Source: Ostrinia nubilalis
Taxonomy: Eukaryota; Arthropoda; Insecta; Lepidoptera; Crambidae
Assembly: GCF_963855985.1 (NCBI RefSeq)
Contig: NC_087105.1
Location: 870,501 to 934,500 of the forward strand
DNA length: 64,000 nt
Direction of reading: 5' to 3'
Shown here: positions 15,754 to 64,000 of the stretch, in pieces
How the letters are laid out: every line of letters begins with the position of its first letter
How positions within the stretch are numbered: the first letter of the stretch is position 1
The notes under the pieces: generated by a model
Told to the model about the DNA's origin: nothing
What the model saw: the letters and a program-made list of their open reading frames with translations, nothing else
The model's database searches: none
Position numbers and translations under genes: made by a program

Positions 15754-15965
15754 CTAGCACCCTCGTAGCGTGTTGAGCGCAGCCACGGTGCGCGCCAGCG
15801 CGGATTCGGCGGGCAGGCGCGAGGCGAGCGCGAGCGCGAACGTTCGGCGCAGCAGCGTGCCCGCGTGCTCGGGAGCGGCGCACGCTAGCTCGGGCAGCGC
15901 GTCCAGCGCGCTCGCCGCTACTTCTGGCTGCCGCGACTCCAGGCACTCCAGGATCGCTTCTAGCC
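15754..15965 (-). CDS. IntS1: IntS1 exon 26 (terminal, with stop)
   Basis: Begins after a TTTCCCAG acceptor, completes a Gly codon with exon 25, and encodes LEAILECLESRQPEVAASAL through HAGTLLRRTFALALASR to a TAG stop. Residues 1384-1453 of the part in the window. The segment corresponds to the HEAT-like C-terminus of vertebrate INTS1. It is single copy. Confidence 0.92.
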
Positions 15966-18900
15966 CTGGGAAAGGATGATGCGGTCAGTAAATTGTTTAC
16001 GATATACGACGTAATTACATGTGACAGATTAGTCTGAAAAAAGTAAATGTTCTGAAAAACCTCTTCGGGATGATTTGCCTCCGTTTTCAACGAGACTCTC
16101 TAGCTCTGATTATTGTTTTGTAGCTGATAGTTTAGGGTTTACGGGCATGCTGCCGAGAAGGATATCATCTACTTGGAATACAGTGTTAACCTTAGTAGAT
16201 TCCTAAAAGTTCGTGTTGATGGCTGGCTTCCACTATGGCCACCAAATTATTTTTTTTACACGTAAATCTAGGCGCAGACTACAGATTTTTAACAGGCCGA
16301 TAGTTGGGCTCGATTCTAATTTGCATGAAAAATCGGCTGATCCAATGTGCGCACTTCCATACTGATTAACAGCCTGACTCAACTATCGGCCAACTAAAAG
16401 TCTAGTCTGCGGGCAGTCTTCCCAGCACACTTGACTCACCCGGGCGTGTATCAGCGACGGCAGGCAGCAGTTTAGGCAGCAGCGAGAGCGCGGCGGCGCG
16501 CAAGATGGCGGCCGCGTGTGCTGGCCCGTCCCAACGTTTATCCCACGCTTACGACTACGTTTAATACACAGCAGTCTCGACTCACCCGGGCGCGTGTCGG
16601 TGGTTACCCCACGCTTACGACTACGTTTTATACTCGCACTAAGCACACTCGACTTACCCGGGCGTGTGTCAGCGACGGCAGGCAGCAGTTTGGGCAGTAG
16701 CGAGAGCGCGGCGGCTCGTAGGGGCCCGCCCCAGGCCCCGCCCCGGCGTTTATCCCACGCTTACGACTACGTTTAATACACAGCAGTCTCGACTCACCCG
16801 GGTTTGTATCGGCGTTCACCCCACGTTTACGACTGCGTTTCATACTCGCACTAAGCACACTCGACTCACCCGGGCGTGTATCAGCGACAGCAGGCAGCAG
16901 TTTAGGCAGCAGCGAGAGCGCGGCGGCTCGTAGGGGCCCGTGCGAGGACGCACACAGCGGCGCGGCGGCGCGCAAGATGGCGGCCGCGTGCGCCGGCCCG
17001 CCCCAAGCACCGCCCCGGCGTTTATCCCACGCTTAATACTCGCACACAGCACACTCGACTCACCCGGGCGTGTATCAGCAACGGCAGGCAGCAGTTTGGG
17101 CAGCGCGCAAGATGGCGGCCGCGTTCGCCAGCCAGCCCCAGGCCCCGCCCCAGCTGTTATCCCACGCTTGCGACTACGCTTAATATTCGCACTAAGCACA
17201 CTCGACTCACCCGGGCGTGTATCAGCGACGGCAGGCAGTTGTTTGGGCAGTAACGAGAGCGTGGCGACACGCTATATGGCGACCGCGTAAACTGGACCGC
17301 CCCATGCCCCGCCCCGGCGTTTACCCCACGTTTACGATACGACTACGTTTCATACTTGCACTAAGCACACAGCACACTCGACTCACCCGGGCGCGTATCA
17401 GCGACGGCAGGCAGCAGTTTGGGCAGTAACGAGAGCGCGGCGGCTCGTAGAGGCCCGTGCGAGGACGCGCACAGCAGCGCGGCGGCGCGCAAGATGGCGG
17501 CCGCATAAACTGGGCCACCCCACGCACCGCCCCGGCGGTTATCCCACGCTTAATACTCGCACACACCACACTCGACTCACCCGGGCGTGTATCAGCAACG
17601 GCAGGCAGCATTTTGGGCAGCGCGCAAGATGGCGGCCGCGTGCGCCGGCCCGCCCCAGCTGTTATCCCACGCTTGCGACTACGCTTAATACTCGCACACA
17701 GCACATTCAACTCACCCGGGCGCGTGTCGGCGACGGCAGGTAGCAGTTTGGGCAGTAGCGAGAGCGCGGCGGCTCGTAGGGGCCCGTCCCAACGTTTATC
17801 CCACGCTTACGACTACGTTTAATACACAGCAGTCTCGACTCACCCGGGTGCGTGTCGGCGGTTACTCCACGTTTACGACTACGTTTTATACTCGCACTAA
17901 GCACACTCGACTCACCCGGGCGTGTATCAGCGACGGCAGGCAGTAGTTTGGGCAGTAGCGAGAGCGCGGCGGCTCGTAGAGGCCCGTGCGAGGACGCGCA
18001 CAGCGGCGCGGCGGCGCGCAAGATGACGGCCGCGTGCGCCGGCCCGCCCCAAGCATAGCCCCTCGTTTATCCCACGCTTAATACTCGCACACACCACACT
18101 TGACTCACCCGGGCGTGTATCAGCAACGGCAGGCAGCAGTTTGGGCAGCGCGCAAGATGGCGGCCGCGTAAACTGGACCGCCCCATGCCCCGCCCCGGCG
18201 TTTATCCCACGCTAACGACTACGTTTAATACACAGCCTTCTCGACTCACCCGGGCGCGTGTCGGAGGTTACCCCACGCTTACGACTACGCTTAATTCTCA
18301 CACTAAGCACACTCGACTCACCCGGGCGTGTATCAGCGACGGCAGGCAGTAGTTTGGGCAGTAGCGAGAGCGCGGCGGCTCGTAGAGGCCCGTGCGAGGA
18401 CGCGCACAGCGGCGCGGCGGCGCGCAAGATGGCGGCCGCGTGCGCCGGCCCGCCCCAAGCACCGCCCCTGCGGTTGCCCCACGCTTCGATCTCCTATGAG
18501 CAAATAACACAGAGTTTATTTATTTATTTTATTTTATTCGGAAAACCAACAGCAATACAATACAAATAATGGGACCTTAAATTATGTATCTGCTTAGCCA
18601 TTTATAGGTAATCGCAAATGGAAGTTTAGGCAAATAGATCTTTCATATGGAATTACAGGACAGATGTGTCACTCCAAGAAATTTTGACAAAAAATGCGAA
18701 GGATCAAAACATTAATTTAGAATTCCAAAATTAAGTTACGAACTCGCAAAGTTACACGAATTCGAATACGAATTCCGCTTGACAAGTCATCAGCCACAGT
18801 GATTTTTGGTGACTTGCCAAATCGCTGGTTTTGAGAAGACTTACCTGCAGCAGCTAGTTGCAGCCACAATTACTTAGCAAATGATACATAGATCTTTCGT

Positions 18901-21900
18901 ATATGTAACAACGAGACACGTGCGTGCTATGCTGGTTACAGTTGCACGAAGGTGTTGCGGCCAGCCGGGCGCGGGTGCGCGCCGTGATATACTTTTATCG
19001 ACGTCAAAATGTTATGGGCAAAATCGATAAAATGGCGTGATAACCGCTTATCCTGGCGCACGTAGAATTTTGTCCAATGACCCCAAGCTACCCATCCTTA
19101 TCGCTCGCGAGTAATTATATTGCTGTCGCGACTGTGCGACGGGCGCCCGCAGTGAGTGTGCGAGCGTGACAGCAACATAATTACGTGTTCGCAGACCAGG
19201 CTTTAGTTGTGAAGAGCCGTAGAAAACTCACCTGCAGCGACCAATGTAGTTGCGCGGGCGGCTCGCTGCGGCGCTGTAGTTGGAGCAGCGCGTGCGGCGG
19301 CGGCGCGGCCGACGCGGGCGCCGACACGTCACCGCCGCTCAGCGCGCTCAATGCTGGCGTGCTCCTGTAAACACATAAATAAAATAATAAATAAAAATAA
19401 AAAGCTTTTATTTCCACAAATTTACAATTTTATAAATTAAGTTAGAAGCATTTGTCTTCACTCTTGTGGCACCCCTGTATGGGCAAAAGCCTCCTCCATT
19501 CCGCTCCATTTCTTCCTGTCCTGAGCTAGGTCGAGCCAATTTTCTCCCGCTACTCTCATTATATCATCAGCCCACCTTTCTTTGGGTCTCCCAACATTCC
19601 TCTTCCCCTTCGGTCCCTTCCATTCTGTTGATGTTATAGTCCATCTTCTATCTTTGTACCTTGCTAGGTGTCCAGCCCACTGCCATTTTAGTTTTAAAGC
19701 TTTTTGGAGGGCATCTGTTAGTTTTGTTTGTTGTCTAATTTTGTTGTTTCTGATTTTTTGAATTTTTCTTATTTTCAGAATGCTCCTCTCCATCGCATGT
19801 TGACATGATTCTATTTTTGCTCTATTTTTGGTCTGGTACACCCAAGTTTGGCTCCCGTATAGTAAGCATGGTAGTAGGCAGGTTTCGACTACGGTTCTTT
19901 TCAGGTGGAAGCTATAGTTGCCTTTCAGGATCTCTTTGTGCGACCAGAACTTTTTCCAGGTGATGTTTATCCTTCTGCTTATTTCCTCTTCGTTGCTATC
20001 TTTGTTGAATGAGACCTGTTTTCCCAGGTATATGTAGTCCTCGACATATTCTATGCATTTTCCATGTACCCATGTTGGTGTTTTGAGACTGTTCGTCATT
20101 ATTTTTGTCTTTGACATGTTCATAGCTAAACCTGTTTTTATGCTTTCTTCTGCCAGTTCGCATATAAACACATAAGCACATTAAATAGACACAGTTCAAC
20201 AGTATTGTGGGAGTGGGAGGTAAACTGACGACTGACAGGTATGCGAAAAGCACCCGGGTCGTAGAGCTGATGGCTGTGTAGCGATGCGCTAGCGCAGAGT
20301 CTCGGCCGCTCTGCTGCTTCGTGTTCAGGGAGCCGTCCTGTGTCTAGAGGGAGCCACTCACGCGACGGTCTCGCGGTGCGGGCGGCGCGCGGTGTAGCGG
20401 CGGACGAGCGCGCACACGCGGTGCACTAGCGCAGAGTCTCGGCCGCTCTGCTGCTTCGTGTTCAGGGAGCCGTCCTGTGTCTAGAGGGAGCCACTCACGC
20501 GACGGTCTCGCGGTGCGCGGCCAGCAGCGCGGCGGCGCGGTGCGGGCGGCGCGCGGTGTAGCGGCGGACGAGCGCGCACACGCGGTGCGCTAGCGCAGAG
20601 TCTCGGCCGCTCTGCTGCTTCGTGTTCAGGGAGCCGTCCTGTGTCTAGAGGGAGCCACTCACGCGACGGTCTCGCGGTGCGCGGCCAGCAGCGCGGCGGC
20701 GCGGTGCGGGCGGCGCGCGGTGTAGCGGCGGACGAGCGCGCACACGCGGTGCGCTAGCGCAGAGTCTCGGCCGCTCTGCTGCTTCGTGTTCAGGGAGCCG
20801 TCCTGTGTCTAGAGGGAGCCACTCACGCGACGGTCTCGCGGTGCGCGGCCAGCAGCGCGGCGGCGCGGTGCGGGCGGCGCGCGGTGTAGCGGCGGACGAG
20901 CGCGCACACGCGGTGCGCTAGCGCAGAGTCTCGGCCGCTCTGCTGCTTCGTGTTCAGGGAGCCGTCCTGTGTCTAGAGGGAGCCACTCACGCGACGGTCT
21001 CGCGGTGCGCGGCCAGCAGCGCGGCGGCGCGGTGCGGGCGGCGCGCGGTGTAGCGGCGGACGAGCGCGCACACGCGGTGCGCTAGCGCAGAGTCTCGGCC
21101 GCTCTGCTGCTTCGTGTTCAGGGAGCCGTCCTGTGTCTAGAGGGAGCCACTCACGCGACGGTCTCGCGGTGCGCGGCCAGCAGCGCGGCGGCGCGGTGCG
21201 GGCGGCGCGCGGTGTAGCGGCGGACGAGCGCGCACACGCGGTGCGCTAGCGCAGAGTCTCGGCCGCTCTGCTGCTTCGTGTTCAGGGAGCCGTCCTGTGT
21301 CTAGAGGGAGCCACTCACGCGACGGTCTCGCGGTGCGCGGCCAGCAGCGCGGCGGCGCGGTGCGGGCGGCGCGCGGTGTAGCGGCGGACGAGCGCGCACA
21401 CGCGGTGCGCTAGCGCAGAGTCTCGGCCGCTCTGCTGCTTCGTGTTCAGGGAGCCGTCCTGTGTCTAGAGGGAGCCACTCACGCGACGGTCTCGCGGTGC
21501 GCGGCCAGCAGCGCGGCGGCGCGGTGCGGGCGGCGCGCGGTGTAGCGGCGGACGAGCGCGCACACGCGGTGCGCTAGCGCAGAGTCTCGGCCGCTCTGCT
21601 GCTTCGTGTTCAGGGAGCCGTCCTGTGTCTAGAGGGAGCCACTCACGCGACGGTCTCGCGGTGCGCGGCCAGCAGCGCGGCGGCGCGGTGCGGGCGGCGC
21701 GCGGTGTAGCGGCGGACGAGCGCGCACACGCGGTGCGCTAGCGCAGAGTCTCGGCCGCTCTGCTGCTTCGTGTTCAGGGAGCCGTCCTGTGTCTAGAGGG
21801 AGCCACTCACGCGACGGTCTCGCGGTGCGCGGCCAGCAGCGCGGCGGCGCGGTGCGGGCGGCGCGCGGTGTAGCGGCGGACGAGCGCGCACACGCGGTGC

Positions 21901-54900: not shown

Positions 54901-57900
54901 TATCCAACTTTATCGCTCGCGCATAATTACATTGCTGTCGCTGTGGCGTGCTCGGCGACCGGTCAATCATCATTTCATCCACAGGACGTTCACTGCTGAA
55001 CATAAACATCCCTCAAGAATTTCCATATTGCCCGGTTGGTAGCGGCTTGCATCCAGCGCTTTCTTGCTACTTTTATTAGGTCTTCGGTCCAGTCGGTCTG
55101 GTCAATAGCTGCGTCCACCCTAGGCCTCGCGAGCCAAGTTTGTTATCCTGCTCGCTCAAGAACAGGGTAAGCAGAATGACTCGCTCGCTAGTCCATGAGC
55201 CCGGTGCTAAATCATCTCGCATTCAGCAGCAGGCGGCCCCGTGCTGTCCCGGCCGGTTACCTCAGCTCCAGGCGGTCGTGGCGCAGCAGCTGGTGCAGCC
55301 AGGGCATGGCGCGGCGCGTGCCGTGGCGCTCCACCAGCTCGAGCAGCAGCGCGGGCTGGCGGCCCAGCAGGCGGCCCGTGCTGTCCCGGCCGGTTACCTC
55401 AGCTCCAGGCGGTCGTGGCGCAGCAGCTGGTGCAGCCAGGGCATGGCGCGGCGCGTGCCGTGGCGCTCCACCAGCTCGAGCAGCAGCGCGGGCTGGCGGC
55501 CCAGCAGGCGGCCCGTGCTGTCCCGGCCGGTTACCTCAGCTCCAGGCGGTCGTGGCGCAGCAGCTGGTGCAGCCAGGGCATGGCGCGGCGCGTGCCGTGG
55601 CGCTCCACCAGCTCGAGCAGCAGCGCGGGCTGGCGGCCCAGCAGGCGGCCCGTGCTGTCCCGGCCGGTTACCTCAGCTCCAGGCGGTCGTGGCGCAGCAG
55701 CTGGTGCAGCCAGGGCATGGCGCGGCGCGTGCCGTGGCGCTCCACCAGCTCGAGCAGCAGCGCGGGCTGGCGGCCCAGCAGGCGGCCCGTGCTGTCCCGG
55801 CCGGTTACCTCAGCTCCAGGCGGTCGTGGCGCAGCAGCTGGTGCAGCCAGGGCATGGCGCGGCGCGTGCCGTGGCGCTCCACCAGCTCGAGCAGCAGCGC
55901 GGGCTGGCGGCCCAGCAGGCGGCCCGTGCTGTCCCGGCCGGTTACCTCAGCTCCAGGCGGTCGTGGCGCAGCAGCTGGTGCAGCCAGGGCATGGCGCGGC
56001 GCGTGCCGTGGCGCTCCACCAGCTCGAGCAGCAGCGCGGGCTGGCGGCCCAGCAGGCGGCCCGTGCTGTCCCGGCCGGTTACCTCAGCTCCAGGCGGTCG
56101 TGGCGCAGCAGCTGGTGCAGCCAGGGCATGGCGCGGCGCGTGCCGTGGCGCTCCACCAGCTCGAGCAGCAGCGCGGGCTGGCGGCCCAGCAGGCGGCCCG
56201 TGCTGTCCCGGCCGGTTACCTCAGCTCCAGGCGGTCGTGGCGCAGCAGCTGGTGCAGCCAGGGCATGGCGCGGCGCGTGCCGTGGCGCTCCACCAGCTCG
56301 AGCAGCAGCGCGGGCTGGCGGCCCAGCAGGCGGCCCGTGCTGTCCCGGCCGGTTACCTCAGCTCCAGGCGGTCGTGGCGCAGCAGCTGGTGCAGCCAGGG
56401 CATGGCGCGGCGCGTGCCGTGGCGCTCCACCAGCTCGAGCAGCAGCGCGGGCTGGCGGCCCAGCAGGCGGCCCGTGCTGTCCCGGCCGGTTACCTCAGCT
56501 CCAGGCGGTCGTGGCGCAGCAGCTGGTGCAGCCAGGGCATGGCGCGGCGCGTGCCGTGGCGCTCCACCAGCTCGAGCAGCAGCGCGGGCTGGCGGCCCAG
56601 CAGGCGGCCCGTGCTGTCCCGGCCGGTTACCTCAGCTCCAGGCGGTCGTGGCGCAGCAGCTGGTGCAGCCAGGGCATGGCGCGGCGCGTGCCGTGGCGCT
56701 CCACCAGCTCGAGCAGCAGCGCGGGCTGGCGGCACAGCAGGCGGCCCAGGCGCAGCTGTCCGCTCAGCGCTTGCAGCGTCTCCAGCACGCCGGCTGGTGG
56801 TTTGCGCGCCGGGCCCAGCGGGTCCATAGTCGTGAGCTAAGGGGACACAAAAAGCTTTATCAAAAATGCAAAGTTGCTTTCTTAGGTTTGATTTCCTCCT
56901 ACGCTGACGTCGGTCGCGTACATCGGTCGAGCGTACGAATAAACACAATGTTCTATGAAGCACCGCACTGCAACGCCGTCGTCAGCGGGAGATGATTACA
57001 TAGAACTAGTGTGTAACCGTGCGCGCCGCTGATGTCGGTCACAAATGTCAGCCTAATCAAGCCTTAAGCTTCTTGCACATAACCTGCGCAAGCGCAGCGT
57101 GATGTTTCGACTCCAATTGACAGCCCTAAACTCGTGCGTGTGTAACAATACAGCTTTGCATAAAGCACCGTATGTTCAATGGAATATTTTGCACTGCCAA
57201 TCTATTGAAATACTTTATCGTGAACTGTCAATGAGGGCTTATCGTTTTTATACTTAACAGTTGGCACCCCTGGCGATTGACAGGACCTTACTCTACAGTG
57301 GCGCCATCTTGATGAGTGCAAATGCGATAGTCCTCCTACCACTTTAGCGCTCACCAGTTGGTGCCACTGTCTTCGCTACTAGCAAGTGACAGGAGCTTAC
57401 TCTACAGTGGCGTTAACTGGTGAGCGCTAAAACGATAGCCCTCATTGGCTTCCCCTTGTACCTGGCTAAGCAGACGCGAGGAGTGTTCAGTGAGCGGCAG
57501 CTTGGCGTTAGAAGCGGCCGCCAAGTGTGTCTCCAACTGCAGGATGGCGGCGCGCTCGGCCTCCGCCCGCTCTGCCTCCGCCGCTGGGTTGGTGTTCCAC
57601 TCTATGCTCGGTTTTCTGAGGGGCATAGATTATGAAACTTATTTTAAATCTATACTAATATTATAAAGAGGAAAGATTTGTACCTACCTATTTTTGTATG
57701 TTTGTAATGAATAGGCTCAAAAACCACTGAACGGATTTTGATGATACTTTACAGTATTATTGTTCATAATCCAGAATAACATATAGGCTATAATTTATGA
57801 CGATCTGTGACAAACGAAATTTCACGCGTGCGAAGCCGCGGGCGGAAAGCTAGTGGGTTATACATAAATGCAGATTGTCCCAAAATTAACATGTCACACT

Positions 57901-60900: not shown

Positions 60901-62223
60901 TTAGTTAGTTGAAGAAGCTTGCATCCAGTGCTTTCGTGCAACCTTCTTAGATCTGTATTTTGACGGATTCAGATCGGACTTAGTGCGAAACTGCACTGAA
61001 GACCTACGCTGAAACTTGAGCGGGCGCATGCACTAGAAAGTATAGAATGAGCACTATGAGCAGCGCAGTGTGGAGCGGACGCGTGAGAAGTGTTTGGCGG
61101 ACGCAAGTCGCGAGAGTGTATCGGTAGACGCTACCCGCCCGCTACAAACCTTAGGAGCGTCCGCTCAATGCGCATTTTTTACTGTATTTTTTTTAAAGAT
61201 TACTAGTAATTTGTTATTGCACAAATTAATTACTAATAGTCCCGTTAGCCCCTCGCTACTAAGCCAAATATGCTTGTCACGAGTGAGCTCATCACAATAC
61301 TCGGTCGCGGCGGGGACCGATCCCGCGTTCTCCAGATCACGAGTCGGCCAGTCCGACCCCTTCACCGTTCGGCTATCGTAGCTTGGTGGTATTGTACAGC
61401 ACTGCGCAGTACCTTGGACAGCCCGATGAAGATGATGCGCAGCAGGTTGTGCTGCGGCAGCGGCGCCTCGCAGCACACGCGGTGCGCCAGCGCGCGCTCG
61501 CACTCCGGCGGCCAGTTGTCCGCCTTGCTGTCCGCCTGCTCTCCACGAACATCATCCGACACAGACACTGCGCAGTACCTTGGACAGCCCGATGAAGATG
61601 ATGCGCAGCAGGTTGTGCTGCGGCAGCGGCGCCTCGCAGCACACGCGGTGCGCCAGCGCGCGCTCGCACTCCGGCGGCCAGTTGTCCGCCTTGCTGTCCG
61701 CCTGCTCTCCACGAACATCATCCGACACAGACACTGCGCAGTACCTTGGACAGCCCGATGAAGATGATGCGCAGCAGGTTGTGCTGCGGCAGCGGCGCCT
61801 CGCAGCACACGCGGTGCGCCAGCGCGCGCTCGCACTCCGGCGGCCAGTTGTCCGCCTTGCTGTCCGCCTGCTCTCCACGAACATCATCCGACACAGACAC
61901 TGCGCAGTACCTTGGACAGCCCGATGAAGATGATGCGCAGCAGGTTGTGCTGCGGCAGCGGCGCCTCGCAGCACACGCGGTGCGCCAGCGCGCGCTCGCA
62001 CTCCGGCGGCCAGTTGTCCGCCTTGCTGTCCGCCTGCTCTCCACGAACATCATCCGACACAGACACTGCGCAGTACCTTGGACAGCCCGATGAAGATGAT
62101 GCGCAGCAGGTTGTGCTGCGGCAGCGGCGCCTCGCAGCACACGCGGTGCGCCAGCGCGCGCTCGCACTCCGGCGGCCAGTTGTCCGCCTTGCTGTACGCC
62201 TCCGCGCTCTCCACGAACATTAT
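15754..62223 (-). CDS. IntS1: Integrator complex subunit 1 (IntS1), C-terminal 1453 residues, 26 exons (gene overview)
   Basis: Twenty-six exons, listed separately below, join with no phase conflict to 4362 coding bases ending in TAG. Vertebrate INTS1 is about 2190 residues, so roughly the first third is missing and should lie to the right of 62223. Diagnostic segments, in the same order as in vertebrate INTS1 as I remember it, include ESAEAYSKADNWP, SPPENITLP, ITSLYW, ETHLAAAS, SRLLSQLTTMDPLGP, LLCRQPALLLELVERHGT, AMPWL, SVLPVQCLCEFL, LLPDWLRLHLVRS, VERAYMAQLLRVQRARG, LLLDWLSEL and VWQGRDRSP. IntS1 is the large alpha-helical scaffold of the nuclear Integrator complex, which cleaves snRNA and nascent mRNA transcripts at RNA polymerase II. 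Many exons are extremely GC-rich (alanine-, arginine- and leucine-rich, with G or C in nearly every third position) while introns are AT-rich. About ten exons have partial tandem copies just downstream, described under repeats and findings. Confidence 0.95.
16430..18321 (-). repeat. Degenerate array of partial copies of IntS1 exon 25
   Basis: Roughly 8 to 15 rearranged pieces of exon 25 lie downstream of it in transcription. Most keep the exon's 3' end (a version of LPKLLPAVADTRPG) followed by the same GTGAGTC donor. Some pieces keep only the last few bases plus the donor. Between them lie spacer words such as TTTATCCCACGCTTACGACT. None keeps the CTCATAG acceptor of the true exon. The many short open frames here on both strands are by-products. 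Confidence 0.85.
18322..18493 (-). CDS. IntS1: IntS1 exon 25
   Basis: Acceptor TTTGCTCATAG, donor GTGAGTC, 172 nt, entering in phase 0 and leaving one base. Encodes EIEAWGNRRGGAWGGPAH, then ILRAAAPLCASS and ALSLLPKLLPAVADTRP. It is the only copy in the local array with an acceptor. The first 15 residues are less certain, since an alternative acceptor nearby would break the frame. Confidence 0.82.
19056..19207. mobile_element. Fold-back MITE, family P, internally shortened
   Basis: Left end CACGTAGAATTTTGTCCAAT and right end CAGACCAGGCTTTA match family P. The second inner arm is largely missing. It ends 25 bp from the splice donor of IntS1 exon 24. Confidence 0.8.
19232..19364 (-). CDS. IntS1: IntS1 exon 24
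   Basis: Acceptor TGTTTACAG, donor GTGAGTTT. Completes an Ala codon and encodes STPALSALSGGDVSAPAS and ALLQLQRRSEPPAQLHWSLQ. Residues 1282-1326 of the visible part. An alanine/proline-rich linker followed by a conserved helix. Single copy. Confidence 0.9.
19395..20171 (-). mobile_element. 5'-truncated LINE (RTE-like), reverse transcriptase C-terminal part
   Basis: The minus strand encodes 237 open residues (19458-20171) typical of the end of lepidopteran endonuclease-reverse transcriptases: VEDYIYLGKQVSF, LLPCLLYGSQTWV, WQWAGHLARYKDRRW and GRPKERWADDIMRVAG. Catalytic RT motifs and the endonuclease are absent, so this is a dead 5' truncation. The 3' tail (19380-19457) is A/T-rich. It lies in the IntS1 intron between exons 23 and 24, in the same orientation as the gene. 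Confidence 0.88.
20282..21805 (-). repeat. 164-bp array: ten decoy copies of IntS1 exon 23
   Basis: The junction word TGTCTAGAGG recurs at 20341, 20478, 20642, 20806, 20970, 21134, 21298, 21462, 21626 and 21790: a constant 164-bp period except the first step of 137. Each unit holds the exon from about its Lys-Gln-Gln-Ser-Gly codons to the GTGAGTGG donor plus about 29 bases of spacer. The exon's start and TATTTTCAG acceptor are missing. The copy furthest downstream lacks the donor. Units appear identical by eye over most of their length. Confidence 0.93.
21811..21975 (-). CDS. IntS1: IntS1 exon 23
   Basis: Acceptor TATATTTTCAG, donor GTGAGTGG, 165 nt, completing a Ser codon. Encodes EEIHGILDCFLNMTKQQSG, then ALAHRVCALVRRYTARRP and AALLAAHRETVA. 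This is the intact, 5'-most member of the 164-bp array. The HEAT-like helices resemble the vertebrate C-terminal half. Confidence 0.92.
22296..22480 (-). repeat. Partial copies of the 3' end of IntS1 exon 22
   Basis: Two pieces of the exon end (about 22315-22346 and 22375-22445) and one piece with only the donor (about 22470-22480), joined by AGGCCGCCTCTAG-type spacers. All carry the GCGAGT donor of the true exon rather than GTGAGT. No acceptor. Confidence 0.8.
22834..23001 (-). CDS. IntS1: IntS1 exon 22, with a GC splice donor
   Basis: Acceptor CTTCAACAG, 168 nt. Encodes LSRMEASVRAVWARVWGAG, then ALPLAAALLRGAPARHHHH and LAALEVLPDHDLFE. The exon end reads GAGAG followed by GCGAGT. Only a GC donor there gives the two leftover bases needed to make Ser with exon 23. 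The nearby GT would break the frame. Confidence 0.88.
23044..23263. mobile_element. MITE with TCAATGAGGGC termini, copy 1
   Basis: About 220 bp with terminal inverted repeats TCAATGAGGGCTATCGTTTT and ACGATAGCCCTCATTGA. Inside are CACCAGTTAGCGCCACTGTA and related words. An inverted second copy is at 57228-57447. It lies 43 bp upstream of the exon 22 acceptor. Confidence 0.85.
23590..23790. repeat. Pyrimidine/purine-rich low-complexity tract
   Basis: Dominated by TTCTTC and TTTCTT on the plus strand, then GAAGAAGAA. Open frames here are low complexity and not genes. It is followed (23817-23945) by scattered degenerate repeats of CATTCGATGAAACG. Confidence 0.7.
24782..24903 (-). repeat. Partial copy of IntS1 exon 21 (3' part plus donor)
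   Basis: Repeats the 3' two-thirds of exon 21, including the GTCAGTCGAAAC donor context, and then joins abruptly at 24904 to half of a family P MITE. It looks identical to the exon over about 120 bp by eye. Confidence 0.85.
24904..24980. mobile_element. Half of a family P MITE fused to the exon 21 copy
   Basis: Starts inside the element (CGACAGCAACATAATTACGC) and ends near GGATTCTACCAGGCCTGG. The other half is missing. Confidence 0.8.
25632..25660. mobile_element. Terminal fragment of a family P MITE next to exon 21
   Basis: The bases ATTCTACGTGCTCACGGACC and the following AGGCTTTA are the last 28 or so of family P. The fragment ends about 16 bp from the exon 21 donor. Confidence 0.75.
25677..25873 (-). 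CDS. IntS1: IntS1 exon 21
   Basis: Acceptor CTCTCCCCAG, donor GTCAGTCG, 197 nt. Encodes VPAIQQLLWSSESRRPAW, then GVRAAAAACTSATDRVAHTL and HQPHHGKEHAHK. Enters in phase 0 and leaves two bases that complete Lys with exon 22. Confidence 0.9.
26052..28700. mobile_element. Inverted pair of a TGTACGGGCG element around a 1.2-kb centre
   Basis: 26052-26725 is the reverse complement of 28030-28700, close to identical by eye. A third piece (27938-28030) repeats the first 93 bases directly, so 27938-28700 is a 763-bp unit with 93-bp inverted ends TGTACGGGCGGGAGGCAGTG. The units contain TATAAAT- and AATAAA-like words, suggesting LTR-derived material, but no coding domain was found. The centre holds a 33-bp tandem repeat (CTGGCTGCTT...GTCCAGG, about 26765-26865) and recurrent GTAGCGTCTTGATTGCTAC words (27450-27590). 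Confidence 0.75.
28735..28890 (-). mobile_element. tRNA-derived SINE fragment
   Basis: On the minus strand a polymerase III A box (TGGTCTAGTGG, 28869-28879) and a perfect B box (GGTTCGATTCC, 28826-28836) are spaced as in a tRNA. The acceptor stem does not pair and position 33 of the anticodon loop is not U, so it is not a functional tRNA. This head is followed by GGGGCAGATTTTTCTATTCGG. Confidence 0.75.
28986..29204. mobile_element. 219-bp palindromic MITE with a 9-bp target duplication
   Basis: Perfect flanking direct repeats GAACTGGCG (28977-28985 and 29205-29213). Termini GGCTCAAAAACTGAACTCCG. The whole element is a hairpin built from repeated words TTCGACA, CTCCGACA and TATCGACATG. The TSD length is in the range of Mutator-like or fold-back elements. 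Confidence 0.88.
29693..29818. mobile_element. Half copy of family P MITE
   Basis: GCCCGGTCTCCGAGCACGTA to CAGTCGCGACAGCAATA, then it stops abruptly at a retroelement tail (AGTCAAAGTCAAAATTTCTT) that occurs at 29475, at 29825 and inverted near 30010-30080. Confidence 0.8.
30103..30587. mobile_element. 485-bp palindromic MITE (GGCGTCTTTTTTTTTTCGCG ends)
   Basis: Long arms, complementary from GGCGTC(T)nCGCGCGGCCATC inward to about 30295 and 30395, where the unpaired loop lies. It is inserted in a repeat whose sequence resumes with CATTGCCATTTTGACTTTGA. Confidence 0.85.
30637..31420 (-). repeat. 196-bp array: four decoy copies of IntS1 exon 20
   Basis: The exon end (CTGTATACCAAG then GTATAG) recurs at an exact 196-bp step (30833, 31029, 31225, 31421). 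Each decoy keeps the exon from its GCGGGCGCGGAGGCTC codons to the donor. The exon's first 60 or so bases are replaced by a 50-bp spacer ending in ATGAATCCAACTTCC. No true acceptor. The large plus-strand open frames across this array (up to 213 codons) are artefacts. Confidence 0.93.
31427..31636 (-). CDS. IntS1: IntS1 exon 20
   Basis: Acceptor TCGTCGTTGCAG, donor GTATAGC, 210 nt, phase 0 at both ends. Encodes LEVLIGYIVEEAEAASVAAG, then RRRMEARLTLVLRCCPSEP and HPVLLLLLYTK. Corresponds to the vertebrate LVELIL...EAETRS region. Intact, 5'-most member of the 196-bp array. Confidence 0.92.
32473..32605 (-). CDS. IntS1: IntS1 exon 19
   Basis: Acceptor TATGTTGTAG, donor GTCAGTCA. Encodes KWAASSVVEFCATLVDSP, RVWQGRDRSPSKH and DDTLRLTHKQ. 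The VWQGRD motif is shared with vertebrate INTS1. Single copy. Confidence 0.93.
33339..33664. mobile_element. hAT-type MITE with 8-bp target duplication
   Basis: Perfect direct repeats CTTGGTAA (33331-33338 and 33665-33672) flank ends CAGGGATAATAAGGATAT...ATCCATAACATCCCTG. The interior has many CGGTTACGGATA words, like transposase-binding subterminal repeats. An 8-bp TSD and CAGGG ends are typical of hAT. Confidence 0.85.
34129..35808. mobile_element. 1.7-kb palindrome made of four copies of one module
   Basis: Ends CACTATGGAGCG and CGCTCCATAGTG, flanked by a CGTCA duplication inside the outer element. Each arm contains two direct copies of a ~300-450-bp module (AATACCTATCGATAGG...CCAATAGTTTG...TTGCCCGTTC), so the order is forward, forward, reverse, reverse. 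A unique centre lies at about 34905-35025. Non-coding. Confidence 0.85.
36171..36473. mobile_element. 303-bp MITE with GTTTCCT/AGGAAAC termini
   Basis: Inverted arms include TGTCCGTCAATTTTAATATC and its degenerate complement near 36395-36455. It abuts the 5' side of the split SINE. Confidence 0.7.
38260..39040. repeat. ~158-bp tandem repeat, four copies plus one inverted
   Basis: The unit contains TTTTGTTCAAAATCAAAAGT, TGACAGAATACGTCCGCCTT and ACCAAAGCTGTAGCACCACT. Four direct copies run to about 38880, followed by an inverted copy at about 38905-39040. Confidence 0.85.
39275..39560 (+). pseudogene. Tc1-like transposase fragment (N-terminal HTH), broken
   Basis: One frame gives AAQIVALLQEGLSQRAVARQ, then SQSWVSKVLRRFRETGGF, the paired-like helix-turn-helix and linker of Tc1 transposases, and stops at a TGA near 39480. 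After a frameshift the next segment reads HLTGIDVQQELRNV, also typical. The DDE catalytic domain is absent. Confidence 0.8.
40788..40909 (-). CDS. IntS1: IntS1 exon 18
   Basis: Acceptor GTTGGGCAG, donor GTTTGTGG (weak), 122 nt. Encodes MRLMFSAGCARWRPQLVTQL and HRASWRTLHTCLRALLNPD. Corresponds to vertebrate QLRLLF...SWPTLHQCIRVLL. Leaves two bases that make Arg with exon 19. Confidence 0.92.
40978..41166. mobile_element. Family P MITE, full palindrome lacking one terminus
   Basis: ACCTGGTCCGTGAGCACGTA to CATTGGACGGGATTC. The terminal GTGCTC...GGCTTTA of the right end is missing. Confidence 0.85.
41243..41431. mobile_element. 189-bp MITE with AATGAGGGTTTTCGCGAATG termini
   Basis: Terminal inverted repeats of about 30 bp, AATGAGGGTTTTCGCGAATG...CATTCGCGAAAACCCTCATT. 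Its 69-bp centre contains a second small inverted pair (ATTGGTGGATTTTGACAT...ATGTCAAAAATAACCAAT). Non-coding. Confidence 0.88.
41796..41921 (-). CDS. IntS1: IntS1 exon 17
   Basis: Acceptor TTTGTCCAG, donor GTACAAGG, 126 nt, phase 0 both sides. Encodes IKSEGRLVEAPLFARGSLG, CGLLLDWLSELQQE and LGPQPERQ. LLLDWLS matches the vertebrate GLLVDWLEML segment. Confidence 0.93.
42356..42489 (-). CDS. IntS1: IntS1 exon 16
   Basis: Acceptor TTCTATCCTCAG, donor GTACAGAT, 134 nt. Encodes LESATASTLEAIGNKIIETQ and EMVVDVISHLLEKNQDG, ending in ETK. Two leading bases complete Ile with exon 15, using the donor at 42928. Confidence 0.92.
42588..42796. mobile_element. Family P MITE, full length (TATAGTCTGG subtype)
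   Basis: Palindrome with ends TATAGTCTGGTCTGCGAGCA and TGCAGACCAGACTATA, located in the intron between exons 15 and 16. Confidence 0.88.
42866..42934 (-). repeat. Triplicated 23-bp splice-donor unit of IntS1 exon 15
   Basis: The unit CTCACTGGCCACCAGGTGGT(ATA) occurs three times, placing identical GTGAGT donors (complement ACTCAC) at 42923-42928, 42900-42905 and 42877-42882. Only the first (42923-42928) keeps phase with exon 16; use of the others would add 23 or 46 bases and shift the frame. Confidence 0.9.
42929..43079 (-). CDS. IntS1: IntS1 exon 15
   Basis: Acceptor CTCTGTCCACAG, 151 nt. Encodes IAEALLQQYTYVGGPLVGAL, KALVQPARGKREPDRLP and TRDHLVA. Leaves one base. Its donor is the first of three identical donors 23 bp apart. 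Confidence 0.92.
43590..43790. mobile_element. Retroelement 3' end fragment
   Basis: AGTGCCCCGGAAAGGACCTA followed by ATTTGAATTTGAATT resembles the tail at about 1535-1590. The upstream part (CCACTTCTTCTCAGCACCAG) has no intact frame. Confidence 0.45.
43808..43996 (-). CDS. IntS1: IntS1 exon 14
   Basis: Acceptor GTCTTCCACAG, donor GTAAATAA, 189 nt, phase 0 both sides. Encodes ALSSETKRYSASSGGAYPYL, RVCAYLKHASEG and AALLRALQPANNPRVAE. Single copy. Codon use here is less extreme than in exon 13. Confidence 0.92.
44055..44194. mobile_element. Family P MITE, internally shortened
   Basis: TAAAGCCTGGTCCGTGAGCA to AGGACCAGGCTTTA; most of the second arm is deleted. Confidence 0.82.
44794..44920. mobile_element. 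Family P MITE, 5'-deleted, inside the exon 13 array
   Basis: Starts TAAAGCTCGCACACTCACTG and ends GCAGACCAGACTATA. It sits in the spacer between exon 13 copies. Confidence 0.85.
45209..45360. mobile_element. ~150-bp MITE (TTTCA-type ends), second partial copy at 44535-44635
   Basis: Ends TTTCATATTAGGGCGTTAGT and CGCTGCTAAATCGCCTAAAT, followed by GTGAAA. The shared interior ATAATGTGAAGGC...TGTCACATAGTATGA also occurs at 44538-44635, where the left end is missing. Confidence 0.75.
45946..46158. mobile_element. Family P MITE, full length, inside the exon 13 array
   Basis: Palindrome from TAAAGCCTGGTCCGTGAGCA to CGTAGACCAGACTACA. Comparison with neighbouring spacers that lack it shows it was inserted into the GTTCTAGTA spacer after the array had formed. 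Confidence 0.87.
46419..46594 (-). CDS. IntS1: IntS1 exon 13
   Basis: Acceptor CACACTTTTCCAG, donor GTGAGTTG, 176 nt. Completes Asp and encodes ELLFGPEELPPEPLDAWAAP, then ALVPQLLSACFEGAPFHGD and VDTALTHLIA. Intact, 5'-most member of the exon 13 array. Confidence 0.92.
46967..47836. mobile_element. 0.87-kb palindromic element (CAGGGTGGAAACG ends), copy 1
   Basis: TA-flanked ends CAGGGTGGAAACGATAAGTG and TTAACGTTTCCACCCTG. A LINE-like fragment (about 47322-47517: GACCCGGCGAACTTTGTTCC ... ATCGGTTCAGCCGTTCTTGA) lies inside. The element ends 17 bp from the exon 12 donor. Confidence 0.85.
47322..47517. mobile_element. RTE-like LINE 3' fragment
   Basis: CTGACCCGGCGAACTTTG, ATCGGTTCAGCCGTTCTTGA and the terminal TATATATAGAT form a repeat that is very common in Lepidoptera. 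Classification as an RTE 3' end is from memory. Confidence 0.6.
47854..48020 (-). CDS. IntS1: IntS1 exon 12
   Basis: Acceptor ATCCTCTCCAG, donor GTCAGTGC, 167 nt. Encodes ALLSALDACPAGAVVRLG, VERAYMAQLLRVQRARGARG and FAAALQLAPPQLPPG. The AYMAQLLRVQRARG block corresponds to vertebrate NYMAHLVEVQHERG. Confidence 0.94.
48049..48298 (-). mobile_element. RTE-like LINE fragment (C-terminal reverse transcriptase region)
   Basis: One minus frame reads RAGHIVRRTDGRWGSKVLEW, then GRPPTRWTDDIVKVAGKRW and TWKALGEAYVQQW, the end of lepidopteran RTE polyproteins. The upstream coding part is missing. Confidence 0.85.
48421..48530. mobile_element. Retroelement tail fragment shared with 18520-18640
   Basis: TTATTAGGAAAACCAACAGAA and ATGTATCCGCTTAGCCATTT occur in similar form at 18530-18610. 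Probably the 3' end of a LINE. Confidence 0.5.
49306..49576 (-). CDS. IntS1: IntS1 exon 11
   Basis: Acceptor CTGTCCCCAG, donor GTGAGTAT, 271 nt, the longest exon. Encodes DTNQEMYSWLLATWFGSDAP, an Ala/Gly-rich insert, EEALLPDWLRLHLVRSARPA and LALFIQTFGMPVQAM. LLPDWL and the QTFGMPV stretch match vertebrate INTS1. Confidence 0.95.
49722..50234 (+). repeat. 513-bp repeat with small open frame, copy 1
   Basis: Direct repeat of 51219-51735, about 90% or more alike by eye. Each copy starts at CAGGCCTGTTCATCTCCGCG and ends ATTATTCTGTG. A plus-strand open frame (49677-49907; shared part about 57 codons, VYIENKTRT...RQGLTYERTLTHARVFLCM) ends at the same TAA-type stop in both. No known domain recognised. 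Confidence 0.8.
50554..50746 (-). CDS. IntS1: IntS1 exon 10
   Basis: Acceptor CTCAATCACAG, donor GTAAGTAC, 193 nt. Encodes an acidic stretch ALKDDPQDEDSQETEGEAP, then LMLQWGNGSTSTLHVLIAQ and KLLCYGPSI. Corresponds to vertebrate FLRWSSGETATMHILVVHA. It is flanked on both sides by the 513-bp direct repeats. Confidence 0.94.
51219..51735 (+). repeat. 517-bp repeat with small open frame, copy 2
   Basis: Partner of 49722-50234. The open frame (51213-51404) differs by several substitutions (TMAHLQDTIRQ versus TIAPYKSTIRQ; MEENKE versus IEKNKE) yet remains open with the same ending QYLTA. It ends 34 bp from the exon 9 donor. Confidence 0.8.
51770..51919 (-). CDS. IntS1: IntS1 exon 9
   Basis: Acceptor CTCTACACAG, donor GTAAGTTA, 150 nt, phase 0 both sides. 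Encodes DLSQVLMERTTVMQAVLPP, a short Pro/Ala-rich linker and HRALHALTAILHAHMRA. ERTTVM corresponds to vertebrate ERSTIM. Confidence 0.93.
51958..52545. mobile_element. ~590-bp element with ACTAGGT-type inverted ends
   Basis: CACCTATTCC, AAATACTTGATCCACCTAGTA and ACTAGGTGGAACAGG...AATAGGTGCACCTAGTATC form mirrored subterminal blocks at both ends. The boundaries are approximate. It lies about 40 bp upstream of the exon 9 acceptor. Confidence 0.6.
52598..52836. mobile_element. 239-bp MITE with TTAA target duplication (piggyBac-like)
   Basis: TTAA at 52594-52597 and 52837-52840 flanks inverted ends GGCCGCTTCCTGACTTG and CAAGTCAGGAAACGGCC. The interior has further inverted words (GCGGCATTGG/CGCGGCA). 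TTAA duplication is the mark of piggyBac-type transposition. Confidence 0.82.
53336..53830 (-). repeat. 165-bp array: three decoy copies of IntS1 exon 8, open in frame
   Basis: The donor context TCACTCACCA recurs at 53336, 53501, 53666 and 53831, exactly 165 bp (55 codons) apart. Each decoy repeats VVRIRAACLAECVPRYVAAY to the DLVL end and the GTGAGT donor, then a 13-residue linker (VSDGSRSRTAVRA) if translated. The first 50 or so bases of the exon and its acceptor are missing. The minus frame is open through the whole array. Confidence 0.94.
53839..54019 (-). CDS. IntS1: IntS1 exon 8
   Basis: Acceptor CATCACCCGCAG, donor GTGAGTGA, 181 nt. Completes Asp and encodes EWLGLLWELRHWNAVRAEV, RIRAACLAECVPRYVAAYFG and FLARHHQ to DLVL. 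Intact, 5'-most member of the 165-bp array. Confidence 0.92.
54215..54288 (-). CDS. IntS1: IntS1 exon 7
   Basis: Acceptor TATTTTTTGCAG, donor GTGAGTGA, only 74 nt. Encodes GLKLVLTQSTDESIEMDYNA and DVSP. GLKLVL corresponds to vertebrate GLSLVL. Unlike most exons of this gene it has ordinary, AT-richer codons and no downstream copies. Confidence 0.92.
54485..54689 (-). CDS. IntS1: IntS1 exon 6
   Basis: Acceptor TTATTCTTCCAG, donor GTCAGTAA, 205 nt. Completes Ser and encodes VLPVQCLCEFLSAGGGAGG, ELCAHLRRTVADSEAGARAV and LHYYLQRLAHPHAPTRASAS. The SxxVLPVQCLCEFL motif is one of the strongest identifiers of INTS1. Confidence 0.96.
54853..54962. mobile_element. Family P MITE, one arm only
   Basis: TAAAGCCCGGTCGCCGAGCA through ATCGCTCGCGCATAATTACA, then a short GTGCTCGGCGACCGG end; the middle is deleted. 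Confidence 0.8.
54966..55140 (-). mobile_element. RTE-like LINE fragment (short)
   Basis: ATCATTTCATCCACAGGACG, TCACTGCTGAACATAAACAT and GGTAGCGGCTTGCATCCAGC match the repeat at 48049-48298 with many substitutions. Confidence 0.7.
55241..56610 (-). repeat. 137-bp array: ten decoy copies of IntS1 exon 5
   Basis: The spacer start GTGCTGTCCCGGCCGGTTAC occurs at 55241 and every 137 bp to 56611 (ten exact periods). Each unit holds the last ~117 bases of exon 5 (GRLLGRQPALLLELVERHGT to DRLELR codons), the GTAACC donor and 20 bases of spacer. Decoys read GGCCGCCAG where the true exon reads TGCCGCCAG. No acceptor. Three overlapping plus-strand frames of 544-584 codons here are repeat artefacts. Confidence 0.94.
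56631..56836 (-). CDS. IntS1: IntS1 exon 5
   Basis: Acceptor TGTCCCCTTAG, donor GTAACCGG, 206 nt. Encodes LTTMDPLGPARKPPAGVL, GRLLCRQPALLLELVERHGT and RAMPWLHQLLRHDRLEL. Joined to exon 4 it gives LLSQLTTMDPLGP, matching vertebrate LLSQLTSLDPQGP. Intact, 5'-most member of the 137-bp array. Confidence 0.96.
57228..57447. mobile_element. MITE with TCAATGAGGGC termini, copy 2
   Basis: Inverted copy of 23044-23263 with the same ends and interior (CAGTTGGCACCCCTGGCGAT, CACTTTAGCGCTCACCAGTT). It ends 14 bp from the exon 4 donor, so almost the whole start of that intron is transposon. Confidence 0.85.
57462..57615 (-). CDS. IntS1: IntS1 exon 4
   Basis: Acceptor TATGCCCCTCAG, donor GTACAAGG, 154 nt. 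Completes Gly and encodes KPSIEWNTNPAAEAERAEAE, ILQLETHLAAASNAKLPLTE and SSRLLSQ. Matches vertebrate EGHLAAAS...ITESSSLLLSQ. Single copy. Confidence 0.95.
57649..57853 (+). mobile_element. Helitron-like non-autonomous element
   Basis: Starts TCTATACTAATATTATAAAG and ends GCGGGCGGAAAGCTAG, lying between A (57648) and T (57854) with no target duplication, as Helitrons do (5' TC, 3' CTAG, A^T site). Interior AAAACCACTGAACGGATTTT is a common lepidopteran word. Confidence 0.75.
58153..58291. mobile_element. 139-bp MITE with CCCGTATTCACAAACA termini
   Basis: Inverted ends CCCGTATTCACAAACATTAC and GTTTGTGAATACGGG. Non-coding. Confidence 0.8.
58390..58520. mobile_element. 131-bp hairpin MITE
   Basis: Arms GCAATAACGTCACTTATGCA and TGCATAAGTGACGTTATTGC are perfectly complementary, continuing into T/A runs. 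The loop is about 75 bp. Confidence 0.8.
58548..58672. mobile_element. 125-bp MITE with CTGAACTGTCC termini
   Basis: Perfect 11-bp inverted ends CTGAACTGTCC...GGACAGTTCAG and inner complementary blocks GACAGGGGGGCGC / GGCGCCCCACTGTC. Confidence 0.72.
58706..59384. mobile_element. 0.68-kb palindromic element (CAGGGTGGAAACG ends), copy 2
   Basis: Second member of the family at 46967-47836, TA-flanked, without the internal LINE fragment. It ends 39 bp from the exon 3 donor. Confidence 0.87.
59424..59576 (-). CDS. IntS1: IntS1 exon 3
   Basis: Acceptor CTTTCCACCAG, donor GTCAGTGA, 153 nt. Completes Gly and encodes YTPPALAITSLYWRGWVLL, AMLAAHNPQSFAERAAATYP and TLRALIETCIT. Matches vertebrate AISTLYWKAW...YPTLKMLMEM. 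Single copy. Confidence 0.96.
59600..59870 (-). mobile_element. Probable retroelement 3' end
   Basis: On the minus strand a short frame (GHTENQRRGLPHRGPRHM, then GVPLRWASLCDRVALFSLL) precedes an AATAAATGTTTCTTTCTTTC tail. This looks like the end of a LINE, but no RT domain is present. Confidence 0.45.
59880..60420. repeat. Degenerate ~45-bp tandem repeat (CAGTTGRCGYCATTGGCGAG), split by a MITE
   Basis: Words such as CAGTTGACGTCAATCTGGTG, CAGTTGGCGCCGTCG, CAGTTGCCGCCACTGGCGA, CAGTTGACGTCATTGGCGAG, CAGGTGCCACTAGCGAG and CAGTTGGCACCATTGGCGAG recur at 40-60-bp steps. The family P MITE at 60009-60222 interrupts the array. Confidence 0.65.
60009..60222. mobile_element. Family P MITE, full length (TAAAGCCTGG subtype)
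   Basis: Near-perfect 214-bp palindrome from TAAAGCCTGGTCCGTGAGCA to ACGGACTAGGCTTTA. One of the best-preserved copies. Confidence 0.92.
60601..60773 (-). CDS. IntS1: IntS1 exon 2
   Basis: Acceptor TTTTCCCCCAG, donor GTGAGTTA, 173 nt. Encodes DIPVAPAEALELVEQLVRRA, PEDNPLHVDKLELAEYVFQL and CQFSPPENITLPAG. Matches vertebrate LADHLVKRA...LCTYHHPENIQLPPG. GC content is ordinary. Single copy. Confidence 0.96.
61185..61384 (-). mobile_element. tRNA-derived SINE (family S), most complete copy
   Basis: Minus strand: a tRNA-like head with TAGCCGAACGGTGAAGG (A-box like) and GCGGGATCGGTCCCCGCC (degenerate B box), a body with GCGAGGGGCTAACGGGACTA, and an A-rich tail. It lies directly downstream of the exon 1 array. 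Confidence 0.7.
61401..62070 (-). repeat. 166-bp array: four decoy copies of IntS1 exon 1 (as numbered here)
   Basis: The donor context CAGTACCTTGG recurs at 61407, 61573, 61739, 61905 and 62071, exactly 166 bp apart. Here the duplicated unit includes the exon start, but the acceptor TGTGTCAG has become TGTGTCGG and the following codons carry a small deletion (AGCAGGCGGACAGC instead of AGCGCGGAGGCGTACAGC), which breaks the frame. The donor is kept in every copy. Confidence 0.94.
62077..62223 (-). CDS. IntS1: IntS1 exon 1 of those visible (internal exon of the gene)
   Basis: Acceptor GTGTCTGTGTCAG, donor GTACTGCG, 147 nt, phase 0 both sides. Encodes IMFVESAEAYSKADNWPPE, ALAHRVCCEAPLPQHNLL and RIIFIGLSK. 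ESAEAYSK.DNWP is diagnostic of INTS1. The gene continues to the right, but no further exon was recognised up to 64000. Confidence 0.95.
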
Positions 62224-62638: not shown

Positions 62639-63122
62639 CAGGGTGGCCAAAACAGTGAGGTCTAAAAGAAAAATTTAGATTCCTTACATCAAGGTGTACC
62701 TAAATCACCCCCATGTATATAATACGATTGTGCTTAGTTCAGGAAATAGAGTTAATTTTGTGATATTTTTAAATTTTATGACCTAGTAGGCTTTAAACAT
62801 TTTTATCTTTTTTTTGGGTTGACTTTTTTCAGATTTCTTTTTTTCGACAGATTTGTTATGAATTGCAGATGTTTGAAAAAAATAATCACCTTCCTATCTT
62901 TGATTCAAGATACAAAAGTTTTGCTAGAAACATTAAAATTATACTTTTATCGGAACACTATCAAATTTTCAACTTAAAAGTTTAAGCAAAAAAAAGAACT
63001 TCCATAGGTCCAAAACCATTTTAAAAACTGCGCCGTTTCCTGAACATTCATAATAATACGATGTTTGCGCTCGCTGCTCGGCCGTTATTTATTGTGAAAT
63101 TTGTCAAATAATACAATCCAAG
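62639..63122 (+). other. Probable 5' UTR of the LINE, or flanking element
   Basis: Starts CAGGGTGGCCAAAACAGTGA directly after the MITE. AT-rich, no open frame, and leads into the ORF1 start. Whether it belongs to the LINE cannot be decided from one copy. Confidence 0.4.
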
Positions 63123-64000
63123 ATGTTCAACTGTCCATTGTGTAACAATAACTGCTCGGACGGTGTTAGATGCTCGAAGTGCACTGTGTCATACTGTTTC
63201 TCGTGTGCAAACATAACTGAAGCTAACTATCGTAAACTTGGGCCGGCACGACAAGCCAGCATCCAATGTACCAGTTGCAAGACCAACCAATCTCATGTGG
63301 CTGCGATGTCCCCTGGAGTGCCGTCACCTTCCTCTGCTGCGACCCTTGATCTTGTCCTACAGGAGTTGCGCAGCGGTATTAATGGAATAAATCACCGCCT
63401 TGAGCAGCTACCGTCCATCGTTCAAGATATAAAAAACATGAAGGATAACTTACAAAATCTCGAATTATCGTTGAGTGGCATAAGTCAAGAAGTATCTGGA
63501 AACACAATTAAACTGGCGAAAGTTGAGGAAAGAGTAAATAATCTGGAAAAACGCCCCCAAGCTGATACAGACTACCCTCAGCTACGGGCTGAAATTACCA
63601 AATTATCTAATGATCTCACTATCAAGGACCAATTGTTGAGATTTAACAACATAGAAATCAAGGGAATCCCACAGAAAAAAAACGAGAATTTGTTTGAGGT
63701 ACTGTGTAAAATTGGGAACGCACTAGGCCAACACATTGATAAAAATGACATCAATTTTATAACCCGTGCGCGCTCCACAACCCAACAGAAGCCAATTATA
63801 GTGGGTTTCTTAGTCAGATATAAGAAACAAGACTTTGTGGCCTCCGCCAGGCTACGCAGACCAGGCCTGACGGCCGAGGACCTGGGCTTCGCGGGAGACC
63901 CGACCAAGATCTACGTAAACGACCACCTAACAAAAGAAAACAAGCAACTTCTCACCAAAACCAAGAGGATAGCCGCTGAACGGGGATATAACTATGTATG
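63123..64000 (+). mobile_element. LINE ORF1 protein (PHD-like finger, coiled coil), open to the window edge
   Basis: 292 codons from the ATG at 63123 without a stop. Residues 4-52 form a PHD-like zinc finger with Cys pairs 4/7, 17/20, 25/28 and 49/52 (Cys25 stands where PHD fingers usually have His). Residues about 78-165 are heptad-rich (INGINHRLEQLPSIVQDIKN, VEERVNNLEK), indicating a coiled coil. The C-terminal part (LRFNNIEIKGIPQKKNENLF, then PIIVGFLVRYKKQDF and GDPTKIYVNDHLTKENKQLL) is typical of ORF1 proteins of insect non-LTR retrotransposons of the Jockey/CR1 type. ORF1 proteins bind the element's RNA. Being open for 878 bases, it may be recent. The reverse transcriptase frame should follow beyond the edge. 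A Kozak-like AAGATGTTC surrounds the start. Not a host gene. Confidence 0.85.

Follow-up and report, generated by a model that had tools for sequence, protein, structure and literature searches.

What places partial copies of an exon, each carrying the 3′ part of the exon and its 5′ splice site, in the intron behind so many exons of one moth gene, and why on that side of the exon only? The question is raised by a window of 64,000 nucleotides of the Ostrinia nubilalis genome (C18:870501-934500), which was studied together with 50 kb upstream, giving a locus of 113.9 kb within a genome of 495 Mb and 52 contigs; positions below are those of the window. A minus-strand draft protein from window open reading frames matches human Integrator subunit 1 (7cun_A, E = 6e-95) as well as lepidopteran IntS1 proteins. 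The spliced IntS1 model, whose exon borders were inferred from mapped homologous proteins (with exons 8, 9, 22 and 23 adjusted by hand), has 35 coding exons on the minus strand and encodes 2010 amino acids without an internal stop; it is 88.4% identical over the aligned length to IntS1 of the crambid moth Loxostege sticticalis and 72.7–76.7% identical to four other moth proteins. The start codon lies at 80026 on the window scale, that is, outside the window, and the stop codon ends at 15754; the window thus covers exons 10–35, with exons 1–9 outside. The exons numbered 1, 5, 8, 13, 15, 20, 21, 22, 23 and 25 in a preliminary description of the window correspond to exons 10, 14, 17, 22, 24, 29, 30, 31, 32 and 34 in the numbering used here. 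A neighbouring plus-strand gene (exons at 13685-14633), phosducin-like by eye, is low in GC, and TRF and the repeat search gave no arrays of note there.

Arrays were detected with TRF and a repeat search, followed by blastn of the 35 exons, each extended by 600 nt of flank, against the 113.9 kb locus. By blastn, 12 of the 34 donor-bearing exons (7, 8, 9, 10, 14, 17, 22, 29, 30, 31, 32 and 34) have downstream copies, between 1 and 12 per exon, each comprising the 3′ part of the exon and its donor. The copies hold 68–231 nt of exon, and the array units, of 89–220 bp, are arranged head-to-tail; where units are adjacent (exons 7, 10, 14, 17, 22, 29 and 32), they consist mostly of exon and include just 8–51 nt of intron past the donor.

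Within the window, where all of these features are on the minus strand and the intact exons are those of the spliced model, exon 10 (62077..62223) is followed by four copies with a donor at a period of 166 (61396..62066), exon 14 (56631..56836) by ten copies running from nt 90 to the donor plus 20 nt at a period of 137 (55227..56610), and exon 17 (53839..54019) by three copies that start at nt 36, include the donor, have a period of 165 and are both frame-preserving and open (53335..53816). Exon 29 (31427..31636) has four copies from nt 66 with a donor at a period of 196 (30640..31375), exon 32 (21811..21975) has nine copies with a donor and one partial copy at a period of 164 (20281..21787), and exon 34 (18322..18493) has a complex, diverged array with ten decoy donors (16423..18213); these six arrays were recovered by TRF, blastn and the donor scan described below. 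By blastn and the scan, the hand-adjusted exon 22 (46419..46594) has seven partly diverged copies with a donor (44468..46368), exon 30 (25677..25873) has one copy, lying 770 nt into the intron, from nt 81 to 19 nt past the donor (24772..24907), and exon 31 (22834..23001) has two short copies of its end (22310..22444). The donor of exon 31, at 22834, is GC in the model (GAG|GCGAGT), and GC is kept in both downstream copies. Exon 24 has a 23-bp array of 3.4 units over its donor only (42866..42943; TRF and scan), and the last coding exon, 35, which contains the stop codon (15754..15965), has no copies by blastn. The partial copies with a donor that had been described behind nine exons of the window were thus all recovered, and the tenth case, exon 24, proved to be this short donor array, with no exon copy. 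About 20–21 of the 34 donor-bearing exons have neither a copy nor a 23-bp array.

Other repeats lie among these arrays. A dispersed repeat of about 145 bp (16268-16411) next to the array of exon 34 has dozens of matches on other contigs, and a repeat family that recurs every few kilobases (at 19037, 29683, 40973, 42584, 44051, 45942, 54849, 60005 and 62423) has, by eye, the inverted halves of a foldback-MITE-like element; half of one such repeat directly adjoins the exon 30 copy at 24907. An AT-richer array in intron 27 (38262-38876; 156/310-bp) matches no IntS1 exon, and two open reading frames, at 19461-20180 (-) and 63057-63998 (+), resemble by eye a piece of a reverse transcriptase and a piece of a mobile-element zinc-finger protein.

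The copies were said to lie always downstream of the intact exon, which is true and yet uninformative, given that any donor-side tandem duplication must, by geometry, take this position; the asymmetry that counts lies between donor side and acceptor side. An ungapped scan of the whole locus, using the final 24 bases of each exon and the 6 intron bases after them, gave 71 decoy donors, 69 behind the 12 array exons and 2 behind exon 24. Every one of them is in the following intron, with 0 in the preceding intron and 0 elsewhere in the locus, and 70 of the 71 have GT or GC. The matching acceptor scan gave four sites, all behind exon 10, where the copies extend through the last 12 nt before the exon and the AG reads GG in 4/4. 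Exon 10 is the sole case in which units cross an acceptor: units start at exon nt 8–106, the nearest being 8–9 nt from the acceptor, and none crosses a live one. The earlier statement that the copies lack a working 3′ splice site thus holds, with the qualification that those of exon 10 include the (dead) acceptor region. Blastn of the 35 exons against the 113.9 kb found no copy of an exon 5′ part in the preceding intron for any of them, in agreement with the reported lack of acceptor-side duplication, and the donor-side polarity extends to exons 7, 8 and 9, beyond the window first described. Within IntS1 the count of 12 donor-side versus 0 acceptor-side exons gives P = 0.0005 (two-sided).

The pattern had been presented as a feature of one gene, a view that fails in the same genome at kinase and HECT loci. 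A Pkinase search of the genome, in which 125 of 666 candidates were scored, gave at least 138 matches, and three match pairs among the matches listed are donor-side arrays, confirmed in the DNA: one at an exon with 13 copies, one at an exon of a second kinase with 4, and one at an exon with 7 counted. The first and third of these genes we take, from sequence resemblance, to be PAK-like and DRAK-like. A HECT search (68 matches) led to two further donor-side arrays confirmed in the DNA, with 9 and 8 decoy donors; a candidate at C8 (L049) was rejected, as the DNA holds no repeat, and matches at C17 and C3 (overlapping ranges, stops) were left out of the count. These three kinase and two HECT exons were chosen because they looked repeated. 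A further sample was therefore taken of 28 kinase exons, in list order, with short open reading frames, chosen blind to repeats and omitting the three known cases, with flanks of 3 kb for 20 exons and 2 kb for 8. Donor-side copies were found at 6 of the 28 (L056, L060, L062, L063, L069 and L071) and acceptor-side copies at 0 of the 28; three neighbour exons in the sampled loci are also donor-side (L064, L066 and L068), L068 being the least certain case, with its intact first exon beyond the DNA piece examined. In this sample, 0 of 8 exons with GC below 0.50 have arrays versus 6 of 20 at 0.50 or above. Among 30 further kinase loci (L014-L043), mostly with long open reading frames, no donor- or acceptor-side array touches an exon; the L030/L031 matches are neighbouring paralogs rather than arrays, and an array at L055, which by eye looked intronic and repeat-like, was left out. 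The donor- versus acceptor-side count that the preliminary description called for in other genes thus came to 14 exons against 0, and the total to 26 against 0 (12 + 3 + 2 + 6 + 3), drawn from both strands of one genome, at IntS1 and 14 further loci, the genes besides IntS1 being kinase and HECT genes.

Gene models from other Lepidoptera suggest that this is not peculiar to Ostrinia. Near-exact internal repeats are present in 10 of 54 IntS1-matching proteins. The 3′ part of an exon is repeated in models of Helicoverpa armigera (exon 9; another model of this species, P0006, has no insertion), Tuta (exon 22), Phthorimaea (exon 23), Chrysodeixis (exon 14) and Choristoneura (exons 14, 17 and 28), and, by our reading, a Parnassius apollo model would repeat that of exon 23. 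The in-frame extra copy in the Choristoneura model derives from an exon 17 part that is also repeated at 53335-54019 in Ostrinia. Exons 9, 14, 17 and 22 are affected both in Ostrinia and in models of other species. Isoform X1 of Helicoverpa zea differs from X2 in carrying the end of exon 12 two more times, in frame, together with seven residues that resemble intron read-through, as would result from use of a third donor. Repeats in Spodoptera littoralis exon 19 and Choristoneura exon 23 were not assigned to either side. At the level of gene models, the search in related species that had been proposed bore out the donor-side repeats, with one case of the other kind: in the Chilo suppressalis model P0035, the 5′ part of exon 34 is repeated with an apparent acceptor (residues about 1200–1300). 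This is the only acceptor-side-looking case met, and the other Chilo model (P0002) has no repeat; judging from this one predicted protein, acceptor-side duplication can probably occur.

Could misassembly have inflated or invented the arrays? Copies of exons 7, 10, 14, 17, 29 and 32 are mostly 97–100% alike, and several arrays with copies 98–100% identical are what such an artefact might yield. However, the arrays of exons 8, 22 and 34 hold diverged copies (10–12% different from the exon in the anchor sequence), periods vary between exons, the same kind of repeat appears in gene models from the assemblies of other species, and an artefact would have no reason to avoid acceptors; we regard this explanation as hardly credible. 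The copies of exons 10, 17 and 32 have common changes that are not present in the exon, which indicates that they multiplied from a copy.

Starting from what is directly observed (the copies, their position, the missing or dead acceptors and the polarity of 26 to 0), we suggest, with slightly better than even confidence, that frequent local tandem duplication and selection on splicing together left donor-side copies behind many exons. Tandem duplications would arise around exons in several registers, and presumably more often in GC-rich DNA. A duplication within the exon would break the protein, one carrying the acceptor would put a decoy acceptor before the true acceptor, and one with both splice sites would make an extra exon, and all three would mostly be lost. 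After a duplication from inside the exon to past the donor, the intact exon and its true donor would come first in the transcript, with that donor nearest to the acceptor across the exon; exon definition would then select the true donor, and the copies, confined to the intron, could expand and homogenise like a minisatellite and perhaps serve as donors now and then, as the Helicoverpa isoform suggests. In the portions of PMC9225289 drawn on here, minigenes that offered two identical 5′ splice sites in a context of long flanking introns used the upstream site exclusively, the upstream preference of competing human 3′ sites was reduced under exon definition, and, in its authors' summary, exon definition favours the sites closest across the exon at both ends. 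Because the decoy follows the true site in a donor-side duplication and precedes it in an acceptor-side one, the asymmetry is predicted in part; the prediction is weakened in that exon definition, as described in those portions (PMC9225289), would also protect the true acceptor, and a further cause, for example the order of transcription, may have contributed.

Several observations speak for such selection. No unit crosses a live acceptor, and the sole crossing case (exon 10) has a dead AG; the polarity is the same at all 26 exons, across genes and on both strands; the Chilo model indicates that the acceptor-side type can probably arise; and repeat arrays are also present away from known exons, both in the window and at the loci sampled. 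The reading frame is kept by 23 of the 71 decoys, which is the chance value and thus rejects selection for in-frame decoys; a random frame is as expected if the copies are spliced out. Introns under 250 nt follow exons 2, 3, 4, 15 and 16, and the absence of arrays there (0/5 versus 12/29 for the others, a small count in which the arrays themselves lengthen introns) is in the direction expected under selection. A length test for acceptor avoidance was weak, with P = 0.07 when all internal exons served as the comparison and no signal (0.71) on shuffling within the array exons, and the relation of unit length to exon length was not significant. Among the three options raised in the preliminary description (a local mutational mechanism, tolerance of donor-side duplications only, and functional decoys), tolerance fits best.

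Alternatively, the polarity may have been created by mutation that accompanies transcription or acts at the 5′ splice site (for example, through R-loops, a paused polymerase, or nick and fill-in) rather than by selection. Such a mechanism would accommodate the lack of any acceptor-side array among the 26 cases in the genome, units that are mostly exon with a short piece of intron past the donor, and the recurrence of exons 9, 14, 17 and 22 in several species. The array exons of IntS1 are also GC-rich (0.715 versus 0.629, P = 0.004), the part of the mutational proposal in the preliminary description that stood. The R-loop part did not, given that the coding strand is not G-rich: in 11 of the 12 array exons its GC skew over the 3′ half is below zero, and a skew near zero or negative is opposite to the expectation for R-loops. 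The two exon halves are alike in GC (mean 0.72 for the 3′ half and 0.71 for the 5′ half), which led us to reject within-exon GC asymmetry as a cause of the polarity. A mutational bias would moreover leave unexplained the dead AG in the only acceptor-crossing unit, and the one Chilo model looks acceptor-side; on balance, we consider this origin unlikely. Its bolder form, that transcription- or splicing-coupled mutation seeded donor arrays behind about one fifth of internal exons and that 5′ splice sites would thus be hotspots of amplification, seems to us less likely still.

A third possibility is that the decoys are functional, either by binding U1 snRNP and so damping early polyadenylation or through unproductive splicing that tunes output. 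The preservation of GT or GC in all but one of the 71 IntS1 decoys and the decoy used in the Helicoverpa zea isoform model are compatible with this, as is the observation that diverged copies have fewer changes in the terminal exon bases and the GT than at an average position of the exon. GT is kept in more than 122 of the 130 copies counted (including 4/4 copies at L045; two copies at L046 have it shifted by one base), and in the diverged arrays it is changed in 4 of 54 copies versus a mean of 10.5 per exon window. However, 10 of 39 exon windows are equally kept, which makes donor conservation nothing special; copy number and site differ between exons and between species models, and about 20–21 of the 34 donor-bearing exons have no such donors. 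Only 3 of 71 decoys, all at exon 17, would maintain an open frame, and read-through there (53335-54019) would insert whole repeats into the protein. Function as proposed earlier is thus unproven and, in our view, highly doubtful; to judge from their sequences, the decoys give neither proof of function nor a sign of being purged.

If duplication filtered by splicing is the correct explanation, genomes may hold very many natural replicas of the duplicated-splice-site minigene experiment, in which donors after the true one are tolerated and acceptors before the true one are not, and first-come or cross-exon rules of splice-site pairing would become testable genome-wide. Such filtering would also explain repeat-laden predicted proteins of Lepidoptera, and would offer a route for intron growth and a supply of ready alternative donors.

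As to their class, the arrays are minisatellites in that they consist of head-to-tail units of tens to hundreds of base pairs. They resemble minisatellites and VNTRs in their units of 89–220 bp and their near-identical or diverged copies, and are unlike them in that the unit of the IntS1 type is an exon end plus a 5′ splice site and that the arrays occur on one side of the exon only. Tandem exon duplication, as in mutually exclusive exons, repeats exon sequence in tandem within one gene; the moth copies differ in that they have no working acceptor and would not be exons, since in 12/12 IntS1 array exons they either start within the exon or read GG in place of AG, and in none of the 12 do both splice sites work. 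An introner-type mobile element does not fit either, as within the locus no exon or donor copy lies behind any exon but its own, and in a genome-wide search with the end of exon 34 (skipping very common words) the array part matched IntS1 only. Nor has a new intron entered the coding sequence: the copies are inside existing introns, and the 35-exon model is collinear with its homologs. In searches of the open PMC literature, outside which most subscription papers lie, neither the pattern nor its explanation by splicing filter or by mutation was found. Intron gain by tandem duplication, in the parts of PMC4974935 compared here, likewise involves local tandem duplication that copies splice signals; however, a new intron results there (in potato, one that has a working acceptor), whereas the moth copies are inside an existing intron, have no working acceptor and make no new intron or exon. 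Formation of stwintrons in Lipomyces, as far as the account in PMC7138796 was drawn upon, similarly duplicates a working 5′ donor where an intron begins, but over 4–7 nt, in one copy and with nested introns as the outcome, in contrast to moth arrays with 68–231 nt of exon, up to 13 copies and many loci. The arrays of dual-specific splice sites in polyubiquitin UBC, in the corresponding parts of PMC10809524, share with the moth arrays a splice site in each repeat unit; there, the repeats belong to the coding sequence and their sites serve as either donor or acceptor, whereas the moth copies are intronic and donor-only.
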